NCBI RefSeq assembly: GCF_039532215.1
Contig: NZ_BAAARN010000001.1
Location: forward strand, 1,969,942-2,033,941
Reading direction: 5' to 3'
DNA length: 64,000 nt
DNA from: Pedococcus aerophilus
Lineage (GTDB): Bacteria > Actinomycetota > Actinomycetes > Actinomycetales > Dermatophilaceae
The notes under the pieces are model-generated. The model was given only the letters and a program-made list of their open reading frames with translations, searched no databases and was not told where the DNA came from. Position 1 is the first letter of the stretch, and each line of letters starts with the position of its first letter. Shown piece by piece: positions 53,772 through 60,878 of the stretch. The translations under genes were made by a program, and so were the position numbers.

Positions 53772-53971
53772 CCGCGGTCGCGCAGCTCCCGCTGCGACGC
53801 CAGCGGCCTCACCGAGCCGCAGACCGGCACAGCGCCGAAGTCCTTGCGCTGCACCGGGTCCTGCGAACCCGTCAACGGTGCTCGGCGTCCGATCCGAGGA
53901 TGCGGGTATGGCGCGTGCGCGTGCGCCGCGAGCGACCCCAGGACCGAGCGCGTCGCCGCCAGCGGGCTCAC
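53768..53971 (-). CDS. Doubtful 67-residue ORF
   Basis: GTG (53971) overlaps the stop of the Gly/Gln-rich protein gene, and the frame is open to 53768. The product is basic with no membrane helix and no recognised domain. It contains a copy of the intergenic 12-mer (53906-53917), elsewhere always non-coding, which argues against it. The alternative is that 53772-53967 is simply intergenic. Confidence 0.25.
   Translation of the reverse strand: MSPLAATRSVLGSLAAHAHAPYPHPRIGRRAPLTGSQDPVQRKDFGAVPVCGSVRPLASQRELRDRG
53906..53917 (+). repeat. Copy of intergenic 12-mer GTATGSCGCGTG
   Basis: GTATGGCGCGTG lies between the convergent LacI gene and the Gly/Gln-rich membrane protein gene. Confidence 0.55.
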
Positions 53972-54549
53972 GTCGTGCTCGCGTTCGGGTCGGCCGGCGC
54001 GAAGCCCTGGCCGGGAAGGGCCGGCTGTCCGGGGAGCTGCTGGCCGTCACCCGGGAGCTGCTGCATGCCTCCCGGAGCCTGGGGCTGGGCACCCTGCTGG
54101 CCGGGAAGCTGCTGCTGGGTGCCGCCCGGGACCTGGGTCCCCTGCTGCGTCCCTTGCTGACCGAAGCCACCCTGGCCGCGACCACCGAAGCCGCCGGGCT
54201 GGAACTGCCCGGTGCCACCCTGGGTCGAGCCGGCCGGGAGGGCTGCCGCTGCACCGACCGCACCCATCGCCGAGATGCCGATCGCCAGGGCTGCGGCGAT
54301 GGCGGTCTTGCGACCGGACCACACCGGAGGATTGAGGGCGGGAGCGGTGGTCGGAGCCGGGCTGGGGGCGATGGTCTGACCCGGGCTGGGGGCGGCGACC
54401 GTGGGCGGCAAGGGCTGGGCGGGCGCGGCCGCCGCCGGCGCCTCGGGAGCCGGCGACGCGGCATACGGCATGGTCTGGGTGGTGGCCCACGCGATCGGTG
54501 CGGTGTCGCCGCTGGGGTCGCGGTCGTTGCGGGTGGTGGGGTTCGTCAT
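53968..54549 (-). CDS. Single-pass membrane protein with Gly/Gln/Pro-rich exterior
   Basis: The 193-residue protein starts at ATG (54549) after GGAGGCGTCCG. Residues 1-78 are Pro/Ala/Thr-rich and cytoplasmic; residues 80-104 (RKTAIAAALAIGISAMGAVGAAAAL) form one helix; the rest is low-complexity Gly, Gln and Pro (QFQPGGFGGRGQGGFGQQ; QQQLPGQQ). Its promoter holds a CACAG direct repeat of 11-bp period like that of the PhoP-like regulator. The Gly-rich composition is shared with the sensor kinase loop and the GT39 enzyme. Function unknown; a surface-exposed matrix or cell-wall-interacting protein is an inference. Confidence 0.7.
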   Translation of the reverse strand: MTNPTTRNDRDPSGDTAPIAWATTQTMPYAASPAPEAPAAAAPAQPLPPTVAAPSPGQTIAPSPAPTTAPALNPPVWSGRKTAIAAALAIGISAMGAVGAAAALPAGSTQGGTGQFQPGGFGGRGQGGFGQQGTQQGTQVPGGTQQQLPGQQGAQPQAPGGMQQLPGDGQQLPGQPALPGQGFAPADPNASTT

Positions 54550-54602: not shown

Positions 54603-54618
54603 CTGTGCGCAGCCTGTG
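54603..54618 (-). promoter_or_regulatory. PhoP-like box upstream of the Gly/Gln-rich protein gene
   Basis: On the minus strand CACAG-GCTGCG-CACAG: two copies (54618-54614 and 54607-54603) exactly 11 bp apart, 54 bases before the ATG. Confidence 0.5.
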
Positions 54619-54658
54619 GCCGGGGTGTCGGACGACTGAGCATCCGCGGTCAGCACGG

Positions 54659-55177
54659 CTAGCCGTGCTCCTCCTTGTGGGCGGCCCGCCAGGACGTGTA
54701 CTCCTCGACCTGCTCGACCTCGTCCCACGCAGCCTTGAAGATCCGCGCCGACTCCGCCTTGACCGGGTCCTCGGGGCCGCGGGGCAGCTCTGCCCGACCG
54801 TGGGCGCCACTCTCCCCGCGCTTGTCGACCGGGACCGGGCCGTCGTACTTCTTCCCGCCCGGGTGGTTGGCGTAGCGCCGGGCCCGGGTGAAACCCATCT
54901 GGAGGAACTTGCGCGCCATGTCCGCGCCGACCAGGTCACCTGCGGCGAGGTAGTCGTCGAACGCCGCCCGGATCGCGGTCGCACTCTCCTGTGCGACATC
55001 GGGGGTCTTGAAGCGCCACAGCGGCAGCAGCTCACCCTTGTAGGGCTGGACGGTCAGGACACCCTGCTCGCCGCGCCCCACGCGGTAGAGCTCGGGGTGC
55101 GCCCTCACGTCGTCGCCGCTGCCCGCCACCTGCAGAAGTATCCCGGCGAAGCGGATCGCGCGCTCGGCGACCGGCAC
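54659..55177 (-). CDS. DUF4385 family protein
   Basis: The 172-residue protein has the DUF4385 core RAHPELYRVGRGEQGVLTVQPYKGELLPLWRFKTPDVAQESATAIRAAFDDYLAAGDLVGADMARKFLQMGFTRARRYANHPGGKKY. It is soluble and acidic at the C terminus. The start at ATG (55177) lies inside the CACAG repeat region shared with the divergent response regulator; a GTG further in (before RAHPELY) is possible. Biochemical function of the family is unknown. Confidence 0.85.
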   Translation of the reverse strand: MPVAERAIRFAGILLQVAGSGDDVRAHPELYRVGRGEQGVLTVQPYKGELLPLWRFKTPDVAQESATAIRAAFDDYLAAGDLVGADMARKFLQMGFTRARRYANHPGGKKYDGPVPVDKRGESGAHGRAELPRGPEDPVKAESARIFKAAWDEVEQVEEYTSWRAAHKEEHG

Positions 55178-55201
55178 AGTGGCTTCACAGGATTCGCACA
55201 G
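55175..55201. promoter_or_regulatory. Triple PhoP-like box upstream of the response regulator gene
   Basis: CACAG occurs at 55175, 55186 and 55197, exactly 11 bp apart. The last copy is part of a perfect palindrome CGCACAG-T-CTGTGCG (55195-55209). M. tuberculosis PhoP binds TCACAGC repeats with the same 11-bp period. Confidence 0.6.
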
Positions 55202-55245
55202 TCTGTGCGTGGCCTTTGCCCAGCCACCGGGTGTTGTCTAGGTCC

Positions 55246-55980
55246 ATGAACACGCAGCAGTCCGCTTCCGCCAAGCTCCAGCGCATCGACGGCTCCCCGG
55301 TGCGGGTCCTCGTCGTCGACGACGAGAGCAACCTGACCGAGCTCCTCTCGATGGCCCTGCGCTACGAGGGTTGGGAGGTGCGCACGGCGTCCAACGGCGC
55401 CAACGCGGTGCGGGCGGCTCGCGAGTTCCAGCCGGATGCGGTGGCCCTCGACATGATGCTGCCGGACTTCGACGGCCTGGAGGTGCTGCGGCGGATGCGC
55501 GCCGACTCCCCCAACGTGCCGGTGCTGTTCCTCACGGCCAAGGACGCGGTCGAGGACAGGGTCGCCGGCCTCACCGCGGGTGGCGACGACTACGTCACCA
55601 AGCCGTTCAGCCTCGAGGAGGTCGTCGCCCGGCTCCGTGCCCTCATGCGGCGCACCGCCGTAGTGACCGACGAGTCCTCGTCCGTGATCGTCGTGGGCGA
55701 CCTCACCATGGACGAGGACAGCCACGAGGTGACCCGCGACGGCGTCCAGATCGCCCTGACCCCAACTGAGTTCGAGCTGCTGCGCTACCTCATGCGCAAC
55801 CCAAAGCGGGTGCTGTCCAAGGCGCAGATCCTCGACCGCGTCTGGAACTACGACTTCGGGGGCCAGGCCAACGTCGTCGAGCTCTACATCTCCTACCTGC
55901 GCAAGAAGATCGACGCCGGCCGCGAGCCGATGATCCACACGATGCGCGGCGTCGGGTACGTCCTCAAGCCCGCGTCATGA
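55246..55980 (+). CDS. PhoP-like OmpR-family response regulator
   Basis: The 244-residue regulator has a receiver domain with D25-D26, phosphoacceptor D69, T97 and K119, then an OmpR-type winged helix (LTPTEFELLRYLMRNPKRVLSKAQILDRVWNYDFGGQANVVELYISYLRKKIDAGREPMIHTMRGVGYVLK). Stretches such as AGLTAGGDDYVTKPFSLEEVVARLRALMRR and the recognition helix are close to mycobacterial PhoP. ATG (55246) is preferred to GTG 55216. The kinase gene overlaps its stop. CACAG repeats upstream suggest autoregulation. Confidence 0.93.
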   Translation: MNTQQSASAKLQRIDGSPVRVLVVDDESNLTELLSMALRYEGWEVRTASNGANAVRAAREFQPDAVALDMMLPDFDGLEVLRRMRADSPNVPVLFLTAKDAVEDRVAGLTAGGDDYVTKPFSLEEVVARLRALMRRTAVVTDESSSVIVVGDLTMDEDSHEVTRDGVQIALTPTEFELLRYLMRNPKRVLSKAQILDRVWNYDFGGQANVVELYISYLRKKIDAGREPMIHTMRGVGYVLKPAS

Positions 55981-57440
55981 GTCCCGCCGCAGCCGCCGGA
56001 GCAGCCCGCACCCGGTTCCGACCGGCCGTGTGGTCGCTCAGCACCAAGCTCGTCGCCACCGTCGTCGGGCTGTTCCTCGCCGTCACCCTCGCGACGTCCT
56101 CCCTCACCGTCCTCCTGCTGCACAACTACCTCCAGGACCAGCTCGACAGCGACGTGACCGCCAGCGTCGCCCGTGAGGGCGGCCGCCCCGACCTCGACGG
56201 CGACGGCCGGGGGCCCGGGGGCGGCGGTCCACCCGGCGGCGGGGGCGCCTTCCTCAACCTCACGCTGCGTGATGGCGTGGCCGTCACCAACCGCGTCGCC
56301 GACGGCAGCACCTACGGCCAGCTCACCGCCGAGCAGATCTCCCAGCTCCAGACCGCGGGCATCGGACAGACCCCCCAGACGGTCGAGATCGACGACCTCG
56401 GCGCCTACCGCGTGGTCTCGGTCTTCACCGCGAACGGCAGCACCGTCATCAGCGGGCTGCCCATGGCCGGCGTCACCGAGACCATCAACACCGTCGTCAC
56501 GCTCATCGTCGGCGGGACGGTGATCGGGTTCATCGTCGTCGGGGCCGGCGGCCTGTGGCTCGTGCGCCGCAACCTCGCACCGCTGCAACGCGTCGCGCAC
56601 ACCGCGACCCAGGTGTCGCGGCTCAAGCTCGACTCCGGCGACGTCGCCCTCGCCGAACGCGTCCCCGCCGACGACACCGACCCGCGTACCGAGGTCGGCC
56701 AGGTCGGCCTCGCCCTCAACAACATGCTCGACAACGTCGAGGGGGCCCTGCAGTCCCGGCACGAGAGCGAGCAGCGTGTGCGCCAGTTCGTCGCCGACGC
56801 CTCGCACGAGCTGCGGACCCCGCTCGCCTCCATCCGGGGGTATGCCGAGCTGTCCCGTCGCGAGCACGAGCCCGTTCCTGCGACGGTCACCCACGCGCTG
56901 TCCCGCGTCGAGTCCGAGGCGCTGCGGATGCAGGGCCTCGTCGAGGACCTGCTCCTGCTGGCCCGCCTCGACGCGGGTCGACCGCTCGAGCGTGAGCCGG
57001 TCGACCTGTCGCTGCTCGCGATGGACGCCGTGAGCGACGCCCACGCCGCCGCGCCCGGCCACCGCTGGGAGCTCGACCTGCCCGACGAGCCCATCGAGGT
57101 CGCCGGCGACCAGGCCCGCCTCCACCAGGTCGTCGCCAACCTCCTCGCGAATGCCCGCACCCACACCCCCGAGGGCACCAAGGTCGTCACCTCGGTGCGC
57201 CCCGATGGCGACTGGGTCCGGGTCAGCGTGGCCGACGACGGCCCTGGCGTGCCGGAACCGTTGCAGCGCAACGTGTTCCAGCGATTCACCCGCGGCGACG
57301 ACTCCCGCAACCGCGCGGCCGGGTCGACGGGCCTCGGCCTGTCCATCGTCGACGCCGTGGCCAAGTCCCATGGCGGACGCGTCGAGCTCGACAGCCACCC
57401 CGGCGACACGACCTTCACGGTCCTGCTCCCCGCCCACTGA
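55977..57440 (+). CDS. Sensor histidine kinase with Gly/Pro-rich sensor loop
   Basis: The 487-residue kinase has TM1 (24-48), an extracellular domain of about 120 residues, TM2 (171-196), HAMP, HisKA (H277 in ASHELRTPLA) and an ATPase domain (N box LLANARTHTPEG; DDGPGVPE; STGLGLSIV). The sensor domain carries a striking insert at residues 75-90 (GDGRGPGGGGPPGGGG). ATG (55977) overlaps the regulator stop (ATGA). The Gly-rich insert resembles the surface proteins encoded on both sides and may interact with the same matrix; that is inference. Confidence 0.92.
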   Translation: MSPAAAAGAARTRFRPAVWSLSTKLVATVVGLFLAVTLATSSLTVLLLHNYLQDQLDSDVTASVAREGGRPDLDGDGRGPGGGGPPGGGGAFLNLTLRDGVAVTNRVADGSTYGQLTAEQISQLQTAGIGQTPQTVEIDDLGAYRVVSVFTANGSTVISGLPMAGVTETINTVVTLIVGGTVIGFIVVGAGGLWLVRRNLAPLQRVAHTATQVSRLKLDSGDVALAERVPADDTDPRTEVGQVGLALNNMLDNVEGALQSRHESEQRVRQFVADASHELRTPLASIRGYAELSRREHEPVPATVTHALSRVESEALRMQGLVEDLLLLARLDAGRPLEREPVDLSLLAMDAVSDAHAAAPGHRWELDLPDEPIEVAGDQARLHQVVANLLANARTHTPEGTKVVTSVRPDGDWVRVSVADDGPGVPEPLQRNVFQRFTRGDDSRNRAAGSTGLGLSIVDAVAKSHGGRVELDSHPGDTTFTVLLPAH

Positions 57441-57478
57441 GGCACGCGCCCCAGCTCATCACCCAGGCTCAGGGGTGG

Positions 57479-57494
57479 CACAGGAGGCGCACAG
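57479..57494 (+). promoter_or_regulatory. PhoP-like box upstream of the GT39 gene
   Basis: CACAG at 57479 and 57490, 11 bp apart, with CTCAG another 11 bp upstream (57468). The GT39 ATG is 24 bases downstream. Confidence 0.5.
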
Positions 57495-57517: not shown

Positions 57518-59599
57518 ATGGACACCATGACCCTCCACCGCAGCGCGGCCGACAGCCCCCCGGCCCTCCCCCGCGCCACCACCGTGCAGGCGGGCCCGAC
57601 CGCACCCAGCCGACTCCAGCGCCTCTGGCGCGGGAACGAGGAGGACCCGTCCTGGGCCCGTCCGGCGCTGCTGGGTCTGCTGTTCGCGACCGCCCTCTTC
57701 TACCTCTACAACCTGACCTCGAGCGGCTACGCGAACTCGTTCTACTCCGCCGCGGTCCAGGCCGGCAGCCAGAGCTGGGAAGCCTTCTTCTACGGGTCCT
57801 CCGACGCCGGCAACTCCATCACCGTCGACAAGCCCCCGGCCTCGCTGTGGATCATGGCGCTGTCGGTGCGGGTCCTCGGGCTGAGCTCGTTCGCGATCCT
57901 GCTGCCCGAGGTCCTCATGGGGGTCGCGACCGTCGCTGTCGTCCACGCCACGGTGCGCCGCCACTTCGGTGCGGCAGCCGGTCTCGTCGGCGGCCTCGTC
58001 ATGGCGCTCACCCCGGTGGCCGTCCTGATGTTCAGGTTCAACAACCCCGACGCGCTGCTCGTGCTGCTCATGGCCCTCGGGGCCTGGGCGACGCTGAAGT
58101 CGATCGACGAGGGGTCGCACAAGTGGTTCGCGATCGTCGGCGTCCTCATCGGGCTCGGCTTCCTCACCAAGGCGCTGCAGGTGCTGCTCGTCGTGCCGGC
58201 GTTCGGGCTCGCGTACCTGCTGTTCGCGAACACGACGCTGCGACGCCGGATCACCGGCGCCCTCATCGGTGTCGCCGCGATGGTCCTGTCGGCCGGCTGG
58301 TGGGTCGCGGTCGTCGAGCTCGTCCCGGCGAGCATGCGCCCCTACATCGGTGGCAGCCAGGACAACTCGTTCCTCTCGGTCACCTTCGGCTACAACGGCC
58401 TCGGCCGCATCAGCGGCAACGAGACCGGGTCGGTCGGCGGCGGCAACGGCTGGGGCACGACCGGACTGGGCCGCATGTTCAGCTCGAGCATCGGAGGCCA
58501 GATCTCCTGGCTCATCCCCTCGGCGCTCATCCTGCTCGCGGTCGGCCTGTTCCTTCGGGGACGGGCGCCGCGCACCGACGGTCGTCGCGCCGCCTACGTC
58601 GTCTGGGGCGGCTGGCTCCTGGTCACGATGCTGACCTTCTCGCTCATGGCCGGCATCTTCCACGAGTACTACACCGTCGCCCTCGCCCCGGCCGTCGCCG
58701 CCGTCGTCGGCATGGGTACCGGTGAGGCGTGGGAGCACCGGACCCGCTCGATCGGCTCGATCACCCTGGCGGCCGCGACCGCTGCTGCCGCGACCTGGTC
58801 GTTCATCCTCCTGTCTCGCACCGACTGGCAGAACTGGCTGCGCATCGGCGTCCTCGTCGTCGGCATGGCCAGCGCGCTGCTCCTGCTGGTCATCACCCAG
58901 CTGCACCGGCGGTTCGTGCCCGTGGTCGTCGCCAGCGCGCTCGTGGCAGTCCTCGCCGGCCCCGCGGCCTACAGCATCCAGACGGTGGGCACCGCCCACA
59001 CCGGCTCCATCGTCACCGCGGGCCCGTCCACGGGTCGCGGAGGGTTCGGTGGGGGCATGCCGGGCGGTGGCCCCGGCGGCATGCCTCCCGGCACGACCCA
59101 GGGCGGGACGGGTACGGCGCCGGGAGGCACCGCGCAGGGCGGCACCACCGGCGCACCCCAGGGTGGCGGCGGAATGGGCGGCCTGCTCGACGCGAGCACC
59201 CCCACCACGGAGGTCGTCTCGGCCCTGTCCGCCGACGCCGGCTCCTACCGGTGGGTCGCCGCGGCGGTCGGCTCGCAGAACGCCGCAGGCCTCCAGCTCG
59301 GCACCGGCCTGCCGGTCATGGCGATCGGTGGCTTCAACGGCAGCGACCCGTCGCCGACGCTGGCGCAGTTCCAGGCGTACGTCGCGAACGGTGACATCCA
59401 CTACTTCGCGGCCAGCGGTGGCCAGGGCGGCGGCCGCGGCGGGATGGGCGGCCTGGGCGGCTCCGGCACCGGCTCGGAGATCTCCACCTGGGTCGCGGCG
59501 AACTTCACCTCCGTGACCATCGGCGGCTCGACGTTCTACGACCTCACCCAACCACTGTCGGCCGCGGCGTCGACCGGCACCACCACCCAGACCACCTGA
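57518..59599 (+). CDS. GT39-family membrane glycosyltransferase (ArnT/PMT-like) with Gly-rich tails
   Basis: The 693-residue protein has about 12 helices up to residue ~495. GYANSFYSAAVQAGSQSWEAFFYGSSDAGNSITVDKPPASLW holds the acidic residue (D104) before Lys typical of the GT39 active site. Enzymes of this group take a sugar from a polyprenyl phosphate and add it to a surface acceptor. The exterior C-terminal region is unusual: Gly/Met/Pro runs at about 505-555 and again at 636-658 (GGQGGGRGGMGGLGGSG), with a folded-looking segment between. ATG (57518) follows TTGGAGCC. The GT2-GtrA gene ten bases downstream probably supplies the lipid-linked sugar. Confidence 0.88.
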   Translation: MDTMTLHRSAADSPPALPRATTVQAGPTAPSRLQRLWRGNEEDPSWARPALLGLLFATALFYLYNLTSSGYANSFYSAAVQAGSQSWEAFFYGSSDAGNSITVDKPPASLWIMALSVRVLGLSSFAILLPEVLMGVATVAVVHATVRRHFGAAAGLVGGLVMALTPVAVLMFRFNNPDALLVLLMALGAWATLKSIDEGSHKWFAIVGVLIGLGFLTKALQVLLVVPAFGLAYLLFANTTLRRRITGALIGVAAMVLSAGWWVAVVELVPASMRPYIGGSQDNSFLSVTFGYNGLGRISGNETGSVGGGNGWGTTGLGRMFSSSIGGQISWLIPSALILLAVGLFLRGRAPRTDGRRAAYVVWGGWLLVTMLTFSLMAGIFHEYYTVALAPAVAAVVGMGTGEAWEHRTRSIGSITLAAATAAAATWSFILLSRTDWQNWLRIGVLVVGMASALLLLVITQLHRRFVPVVVASALVAVLAGPAAYSIQTVGTAHTGSIVTAGPSTGRGGFGGGMPGGGPGGMPPGTTQGGTGTAPGGTAQGGTTGAPQGGGGMGGLLDASTPTTEVVSALSADAGSYRWVAAAVGSQNAAGLQLGTGLPVMAIGGFNGSDPSPTLAQFQAYVANGDIHYFAASGGQGGGRGGMGGLGGSGTGSEISTWVAANFTSVTIGGSTFYDLTQPLSAAASTGTTTQTT

Positions 59600-59609
59600 G
59601 GGGACCGAG

Positions 59610-60878
59610 ATGAGCGACCTGACCGCCCCAGTCCCCGTGCTCGACGTCGTCATCCCGGTGTTCAACGAGCAGCACACCGTGGCCGCGTGCGTGCGGCGGC
59701 TGCACCAGCACCTCGTGCAGACGTTCCCGTACCCGTTCCGGATCACCGTGGCCGACAACGCCAGCACCGACGCGACGGCCGCCGTCGCGTCGGGGCTGGT
59801 GGCCGAGCTGCCCGGGGTCACCCTCGTCCGCCTCGCGGAGAAGGGACGGGGGCGGGCGCTCAAAGCGGTCTGGCTCGCCTCCGACGCACCGATCCTCGCC
59901 TACATGGACGTCGACCTGTCCACGGACCTCGACGCCCTCTGGCCGCTCGTCGCACCCCTGATGTCCGGGCACTCGGACCTCGCGATCGGGTCGCGACTGG
60001 CTCGCGGATCGCGTGTCGTGCGGGGTGCCAGGCGCGAGGTGGTCTCTCGGGGCTACAACCTGATCCTGCGGGGAGCCCTGGGGGCGAGGTTCACGGACGC
60101 CCAGTGCGGGTTCAAGGCGATCCGGGCCGATGTCGCAGCCGAGCTGCTGCCCCTCGTCGAGGACACCACGTGGTTCTTCGACACCGAGCTGCTCGTCCTG
60201 GCCCAGCGCTGCGGCCTGCGGATCCACGAGGTGCCCGTCGACTGGTTCGACGACCCGGACTCGCGCGTCGACGTCGTGGGCACCGCCCTGGACGACCTGC
60301 GTGGCGTCCGGCGGGTGCGGCGTTCCCTGGCCTCGGGCGCGCTGCCGCTGACCGACATCACGGCCCGCCTGGGCCGGGGTACGCCGGGTGGGAGCACGTG
60401 GCAGCAGCTGCAAAGGTTCGCCGCGGTGGGAGTCGCCAGCACGGTGGTCCACCTCGGCCTGTTCGCCGCACTGAGCGCCGGTATGGCGTCCGCCCAGGTC
60501 GCCAACCTCCTCGCCCTGCTGGTGGCCACCGTCGCGAACACGGCGCTGAACCGGCGCTGGACGTTCGGCATCCAGGGTGGCCGGGGCGCAGCGCGACACC
60601 AGGCGCAGGGGCTGGCCGTCTTCGGCATCACCTGGCTGATGACGGCCGGTGCGCTGGGGCTGCTCCACCTCGTCGCCGCGGCGCCGCCGACCGCGGCGCA
60701 GACCGGGGTCGTGGCCGTGGCCACCGCCGCCTCGACGGCGGTGCGGTTCGTCGCGATGCGGTCCTGGATGTTCCGCCCACCCACGGCGCGCGGTGGAGGT
60801 CTGCGCGATGCCACCACGCCGCATACCGAAGCGGCCCCCTCCCACGTCTCACCCGAGGTGACGAGCCGCGTTGCCTGA
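59610..60878 (+). CDS. GT2 glycosyltransferase fused to GtrA flippase-like domain
   Basis: The 422-residue protein has an N-terminal GT2 domain of the polyprenyl-phosphate-sugar synthase type (DVVIPVFNEQHTVAACVRRL; VADNASTDATA; AYMDVDLSTDLDALWPLV with the metal-binding DVD; FTDAQCGFKAIRADVA) and a C-terminal GtrA domain of four helices (LQRFAAVGVASTVVHLGLFAALS...NTALNRRWTF). Such fusions make and flip the polyprenyl-linked sugar used by GT39-type enzymes. It is the last gene of the two-component/glycosyltransferase block. A stem-loop follows. Confidence 0.9.
   Translation: MSDLTAPVPVLDVVIPVFNEQHTVAACVRRLHQHLVQTFPYPFRITVADNASTDATAAVASGLVAELPGVTLVRLAEKGRGRALKAVWLASDAPILAYMDVDLSTDLDALWPLVAPLMSGHSDLAIGSRLARGSRVVRGARREVVSRGYNLILRGALGARFTDAQCGFKAIRADVAAELLPLVEDTTWFFDTELLVLAQRCGLRIHEVPVDWFDDPDSRVDVVGTALDDLRGVRRVRRSLASGALPLTDITARLGRGTPGGSTWQQLQRFAAVGVASTVVHLGLFAALSAGMASAQVANLLALLVATVANTALNRRWTFGIQGGRGAARHQAQGLAVFGITWLMTAGALGLLHLVAAAPPTAAQTGVVAVATAASTAVRFVAMRSWMFRPPTARGGGLRDATTPHTEAAPSHVSPEVTSRVA

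Follow-up and report, generated by a model that had tools for sequence, protein, structure and literature searches.

Two response regulators, PhoP and TcrX, provide the closest described systems for the DNA repeats considered here. In the available part of PMC4832192, PhoP binds as a tandem dimer, the strict 4-bp spacing of its 7-bp motifs giving an 11-bp period, and the tandem binding extends to the trimer and the tetramer. According to the accessible text of PMC3413638, the promoter of PhoP itself has its repeats downstream of the start. As for TcrX, the part of PMC10883919 at hand reports that the regulator binds its own promoter and, under acid conditions, induces it. By the same account, binding requires a 7-bp mirror repeat with both of its arms, one of which overlaps the putative -10 element, and the search for a genome-wide TcrX consensus gave none. 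The same text describes direct targets which include two small proline-rich proteins, and the mycobacterial system is reported to matter for persistence. Furthermore, a figure legend in PMC5836110 assigns ykcBC of Bacillus subtilis to the YclJ and YrkP regulon, and in the text available from that source ykcBC deletion left lipoteichoic acid unaltered under the conditions tested. In our study, a stretch of 64,000 nucleotides from Pedococcus aerophilus (NCBI RefSeq assembly GCF_039532215.1, contig NZ_BAAARN010000001.1, positions 1,969,942 to 2,033,941 of the forward strand; this whole stretch is called the window below) was analyzed, in which CACAG direct repeats lie around a two-component system. 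The repeats consist of two or more half-sites in the same orientation with an 11-bp period, as in PhoP-type direct repeats. They are very probably operators of the neighboring response regulator, through which it would control its own gene and envelope genes, with activation. The element is a conserved PhoP-type direct-repeat operator with predicted binding, yet it belongs to a TcrX-type regulator.

The repeats and the two-component system are located as follows.

54603..54618, minus strand: exact direct repeat CACAGGCTGCGCACAG, 53 bp ahead of the ATG of a Gly/Gln-rich protein, read directly from the sequence
55175..55201, plus strand: predicted operator of the regulator, CACAG three times at 55175, 55186 and 55197 (-71, -60 and -49 from the ATG), based on sequence and conservation
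57468..57494, plus strand: predicted operator of the GT39 gene, CTCAG at 57468 and CACAG at 57479 and 57490 (-50, -39 and -28 from the ATG)
55246..55980, plus strand: response regulator of the OmpR/PhoB family, with PF00072 and PF00486 above cut-off
55977..57440, plus strand: sensor histidine kinase, with HisKA and HATPase_c above cut-off and a HAMP score of 23.6 bits under the cut-off of 25; orthologues were found in relatives

On direct reading, the repeats stood exactly where an earlier note on this DNA had placed them, and its GC content of about 71% was measured as 71.2%. The window contained four exact CACAG-N6-CACAG pairs (the triplet counted twice), while 100 dinucleotide shuffles gave a mean of 0.22 and never reached four matches. 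The repeats thus exceeded chance as the note had held, its own estimate being about 0.1 pair per 64 kb. CACAG occurred 60 times on both strands, and among pair distances of 5-40 bp only 11 and 22 were occupied, all others being zero. When the 30 orderings of the five letters were compared, CACAG formed four pairs at 11 bp and each other ordering at most one. In addition, weaker degenerate half-sites in phase with the triplet were seen at about -38 and -27 in the regulator promoter.

The conservation of the repeats was investigated in orthologous promoters. The kinase was searched for in 78 relatives and matched at E 1e-60 in 66, paralogues counted; 50 of the 53 best kinase matches were taken as orthologous loci, the G076, G058 and G065 loci being left out. 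Promoter positions were counted from the start assigned by homology. In 41 of the 50 loci, the promoter of the regulator contained an exact CACAG pair at 11 bp, mostly near -60. After thinning to 40 promoters, nearly one per genus (one for the window's genus, and two others that share another genus), the pair was present at 11 bp in 31, at 22 bp in 16 and at 33 bp in 13, and every spacing that was not a multiple of 11 was seen in at most three. The degenerate pair C[AT][CT]AG at 11 bp was present in 39/40. Shuffled promoters gave a mean of 0.003, compared with 31/40 for the real ones, and the motif search suggested in the earlier note returned the word and spacing which it had proposed, since CACAG at 11 bp ranked first of 36,864 word and spacing combinations in the thinned set. 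Moreover, the GT39 gene was identified in 21 loci, and the exact pair lay near its start in 15 of them, 13 times at -38/-39; in 10 of the 11 genus genomes, CTCAG one turn further upstream made this a triple array. On the minus strand, an exact pair ahead of the regulator and facing the divergent gene was observed in 22/50 loci, some of which had little upstream DNA. Both operators were retained where a DUF4385 gene intervenes (4 of 11 genus loci). Conservation in the regulator, GT39 and divergent promoters, which the note had set as a test, supports its view that the regulator would control itself and at least two neighbors.

The identity of the regulator was then considered. Its best solved relative was PhoP of Mycobacterium tuberculosis (E 1.9e-85). 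In four genomes of one genus, taken as mycobacterial because of their near-identical PhoP, the PhoP orthologues showed an identity of 92-98% with PhoP and of only 58-59% with the window regulator, whereas another regulator of the same four genomes was 69-72% identical to the window regulator; for the TrcR-type genes, the value was 60-63%. In a tree of 51 rows selected by us, the window regulator fell into a clade of 33 rows (support 100/95) with TcrX- and TrcR-type genes, and the PhoP clade of nine rows was separate (support 100/97). The identities of 58-59% versus 69-72%, together with the separate supported clades, rule out the regulator as an orthologue of M. tuberculosis PhoP. The regulator is nearest to TcrX by identity (69-72%, compared with 60-63% for the TrcR type) and may be its one-to-one orthologue; the main fork within the 33-row clade, which joins these groups, was drawn open in the tree. 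The genome G223 carries two members of the 33-row clade, one beside an LpqH-type gene (PF05481) and one beside KdpA (PF03814), which we take to be the tcrXY and trcRS neighborhoods, respectively. The names TcrX and TrcR follow from the gene order of tcrXY and trcRS combined with the neighbors in G223, the tree and the identities. The DNA-reading helix was NVVELYISYLRKKI in the window regulator and NVVESYVSYLRRKI in PhoP. Among the six base-facing PhoP residues given in the available part of PMC4832192, N212, V213, E215, Y217 and Y220 were identical and S216 was replaced by Leu. Accordingly, the description "PhoP-like" in the earlier note was apt for the DNA-reading residues, five of six being kept, but not for descent.

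The reach of the array across actinomycetes was evaluated in a scan of named genomes, which covered at least 80 loci, with L184 left out for want of upstream DNA; regulators with a tblastn score of at least 310 bits to the window regulator were counted as window-type. Among the matches listed, a C[AT][CT]AG pair at 11 bp was present for 28/34 window-type regulators compared with 2/45 others, and the exact CACAG pair for 8/34 compared with 2/45. Both exceptions among these 45 were mycobacterial PhoP-type genes, and the listed pair-bearing loci included Streptomyces, Actinoplanes, Amycolatopsis, Nocardia, Mycobacterium and Microbacterium. The tcrX-type promoter carried a triple array in all four mycobacterial genomes, and the 11-bp direct repeat of half-sites was found in 6/6 mycobacterial or nocardial tcrX-type promoters. 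Within the arrays of these six promoters no mirror repeat of 7-9 bp was detected, one being located outside the array in L163; the published 7-bp mirror repeat was therefore not found there as a conserved element. In L101 and L104, CATAGG lay upstream of GGATAC, forming a 6-bp mirror. From such promoters of relatives we infer that the first published mirror arm would be a CATAG half-site. The array was rejected as a trait of the whole clade, because four TrcR-type promoters lacked it. In the titles and abstract openings of the open-licence literature, no description of such an array for TcrX-type regulators was found, and the term TcrX does not occur in the available part of PMC9739842. On balance, we lean slightly towards the view that TcrX-type regulators of actinomycetes in general use the tandem C[AT][CT]AG array, with a half-site every 11 bp, as their operator, that they read it by nearly the PhoP code, and that the TrcR branch has lost it. 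The published mirror repeat would then combine one CATAG half-site with the -10 element, and the array would supply the missing consensus of the TcrX regulon.

The repeats suggest the following mechanism, for which one further feature of the regulator promoter is needed.

55234..55239, plus strand: possible -10 element TTGTCT, at -12 to -7, with T at -12 and T at -7 each in 16/23 aligned promoters

The kinase would phosphorylate the regulator, which would then sit head-to-tail on the DNA, one subunit per C[AT][CT]AG half-site, with subunits 11 bp (one helical turn) apart and all on the same face. Arrays of up to four half-sites match the tandem PhoP geometry in the available part of PMC4832192. 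The row of subunits would span -71 to -45 at the regulator promoter and -50 to -24 at the GT39 promoter, up to the -35 region. Given the putative TTGTCT element, the RNA start would be at or near the regulator ATG. Rows which reach the -35 region, together with T-rich -10-like elements at -12 to -7, point to activated promoters with little or no leader. Activation from such start points would mean positive autoregulation, and it would induce the YkcB/YkcC-like envelope glycosyltransferase pair and the divergent Gly-rich membrane protein. A secreted intradiol-dioxygenase-like protein may be a distant target, and an ApbE flavin transferase less surely so. What the analysis shows are the sites with their conservation, position and phase, the clade of the regulator and its kept DNA-reading residues; binding, its dependence on phosphorylation, activation and the nature of the signal are what we infer.

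Several results weigh against the operator reading. The half-site C[AT][CT]AG was derived from promoters which were later counted with it, a limit that does not apply to the spacing. The exact pair was missing in 9/40 thinned promoters; L058 and L062 had CTCAG pairs only, and L054 had no pair at 11 bp. Even the degenerate pair was absent from 6/34 window-type regulators among the matches listed (L167, L176, L183, L188, L191 and L194), and in 200 bp upstream of the TrcR-type genes a half-site was found in 0/4 promoters, though these genes are nested in the same clade. When genus loci with sites outside the operon were examined (n = 49), 11 had no called gene start within 300 bp of the site and three had the site inside a called gene, one locus being counted in both groups; some sites are therefore probably due to chance. 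Of 24 loci with ferric-reductase-like orthologues, 11 had the pair, which was absent at this gene in the own genome. The genome-wide scan proposed by the earlier note showed no excess over controls: the own genome (4.02 Mb) had nine CACAG-N6-CACAG matches compared with 14 for the reversed pattern, and 11 genomes of the window's genus had 96 compared with 94. Other spacers in the same 11 genomes gave 25 matches for N5 and 104 for N7, so that N7 was about as frequent as N6; some N7 pairs, of the form CACAG-N2-TTGTCCACAG, resemble what we take to be DnaA boxes. Finally, position alone does not separate activation from repression.

Genome-wide enrichment was therefore rejected as proof, because the N6 counts were not above those of the reversed pattern or N7. 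As the bare pattern is unremarkable across the genome, the case stands on clustering at the locus and on conservation. The clustering part of the scan did favor the note, with 4/9 own-genome matches at the window locus, and the share across the 11 genus genomes was 43/96. Triple arrays numbered 39 in 20 genomes, compared with nine for the reversed pattern, and 27 of the 39 were at the window locus or its orthologues.

The alternative that survives best is repression by the regulator from these same repeats, with rows that overlap the -35 region and give negative feedback. Half-sites reach down to -24 at GT39, and degenerate ones to about -27 at the regulator, which would suit such a role. By comparison, acid-dependent autoinduction of tcrXY was abolished by a scrambled binding site in the accessible part of PMC10883919, and the weak -10-like elements seem to fit an activated promoter, so repression is considered unlikely. 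A poorer candidate is another regulator, for example a second PhoP-like one of this genome (G000 C3:79427-80113), which would bind the repeats and have the local regulator merely as a target. The identity of this C3 regulator to PhoP was a little above that of the window regulator (61.8% versus 59.2%), and in several relatives the sites adjoin a paralogous kinase. The arrays, however, follow the window-type regulators in the proportions given above and occupy the promoters of these regulators themselves over a range that extends from mycobacteria to streptomycetes, and the promoter of the C3 regulator (L093) had no half-site in 200 bp; we consider this explanation quite improbable. Chance, high-GC composition or codon-driven repeats, for which the flat genome-wide counts could speak, have a negligible probability in view of the shuffle and spacing controls at the locus and the conservation at nearly fixed promoter positions; the repeats are real, and a chance origin is excluded for the promoters in question. 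The C3 regulator resembled PhoP and the window regulator to about the same degree.

With the repeats taken as operators of the local regulator, candidate targets elsewhere were examined. The five own-genome matches outside the window locus precede three genes.

Secreted intradiol-dioxygenase-like protein: CACAG triplet upstream (own genome C1:37265); PF00775 just at cut-off
Gly-rich exported protein: site upstream in the own genome; no Pfam match
Small Ser-rich protein adjoining the ApbE gene: two pairs upstream in the own genome (C5:212009)

In 12 of the 49 genus loci, the pair ended 45-46 bp from the called start, which is the geometry of the regulator promoter. Dioxygenase-like proteins accounted for six of these 12, small exported proteins for three, ABC-transporter ATPases for two and a further response regulator for one; the names come from a Pfam match of one member or from inspection by eye. 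The pair was present in 10 of 13 genomes having a match to the dioxygenase (47 searched), nine exact and one degenerate, and one orthologue with the pair came from another family of the order. A dioxygenase-like match with one internal TGA was seen in a genus member (L288, G003 C1:1325939-1326583). The ferric reductase was rejected as a core target, given that only 11/24 of its loci have the pair and that the own genome lacks it. A ferric-reductase-like gene directly follows a paralogous kinase in G054 (C12:42248-45411), an arrangement linking these sensors, as judged from gene order, to extracytoplasmic redox genes. In L159, L160, L161 and L162, a paralogous kinase gene has an exact pair at its end or just past it; L159 has one upstream of the paralogous regulator as well. 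These paralogous kinase loci are possibly a second system sharing the code.

The remaining features of the locus are given below.

53968..54549, minus strand: Ala/Pro-rich, Gly/Gln-rich protein with a single membrane segment (by eye), an open reading frame and predicted target
54659..55177, minus strand: DUF4385 gene (PF14328), with an operator cluster on either side and a listed GTG start that shares bases with the first repeat of the regulator promoter
55195..55209, plus strand: perfect palindrome CGCACAGTCTGTGCG with 7-bp arms, surrounding the third half-site of the regulator promoter
57518..59599, plus strand: GT39-type membrane glycosyltransferase, YkcB-like, with PMT_2 and YkcB_C
59610..60878, plus strand: GT2 and GtrA glycosyltransferase, the YkcC-like partner, with PF00535 and PF04138

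For the Gly/Gln-rich protein, neither Pfam nor NCBIfam gave a match at E 0.001, and tblastn matches to it occurred in 8/50 loci, the window included; similar-looking divergent open reading frames were seen by eye in several orthologous loci. A Gly/Thr-rich insert of the GT39 protein resembles the tail of this Gly/Gln-rich protein, also by eye. By tblastn, the DUF4385 gene was present in only 4/50 loci (L013, L014, L015 and L018), between otherwise adjacent operators. The palindrome was identical in L014, and a similar CTGTGCG was found in L015. The order of regulator, kinase and glycosyltransferase pair was retained in G099 (from a genus that the regulator tree places with Streptomyces), in G277 and G287, and in the mycobacterial-type G114. 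G287 has an exact pair between kinase and glycosyltransferase, and in G099 such a pair falls within the final bases of the kinase gene as called. A GT39 gene of G046, located further away, is preceded by two pairs that overlap, an exact one and a CTCAG-CACAG one.

These results provide a precise and portable DNA motif for a widespread actinobacterial sensor family, whose mycobacterial member has no reported consensus in the available part of PMC10883919. They also connect the sensor with exported or redox-type proteins and with a pair of envelope glycosyltransferases, and thereby narrow down where its signal may be sought. As two paralogous regulators, PhoP and the TcrX type, have almost one DNA code, possible cross-talk between them at the DNA can be put to the test.

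Compared with known systems, the operator is a further case of the PhoP-type direct repeats already known, with binding predicted from the DNA. Like the TCACAGC-N4-TCACAGC repeat of M. tuberculosis PhoP in the available literature, it has a CACAG core, a head-to-tail arrangement, an 11-bp period and, in its regulator, five of six base-reading residues. It differs in also having CATAG and CTCAG half-sites, longer arrays and a non-orthologous regulator, and the repeats here probably lie upstream of the start, whereas those of the PhoP promoter are downstream in the part of PMC3413638 at hand. With TcrX/TcrY, the window system shares the clade, and it has a predicted operator in its own promoter; autoregulation of TcrX is reported in the available part of PMC10883919. 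The small proline-rich targets described there may be compared with the Ala/Pro- and Gly-rich protein here. In contrast to the 7-bp mirror repeat of that text, six relatives' tcrX-type promoters have the 11-bp direct repeat. TrcR/TrcS is nested in the same clade but is less identical, and four promoters of this type have no half-site within 200 bp upstream. Finally, B. subtilis ykcBC, as described in the accessible part of PMC5836110, is likewise a GT-C/GT-A glycosyltransferase pair under regulators (YclJ and YrkP), although the phylum and the regulators are different.

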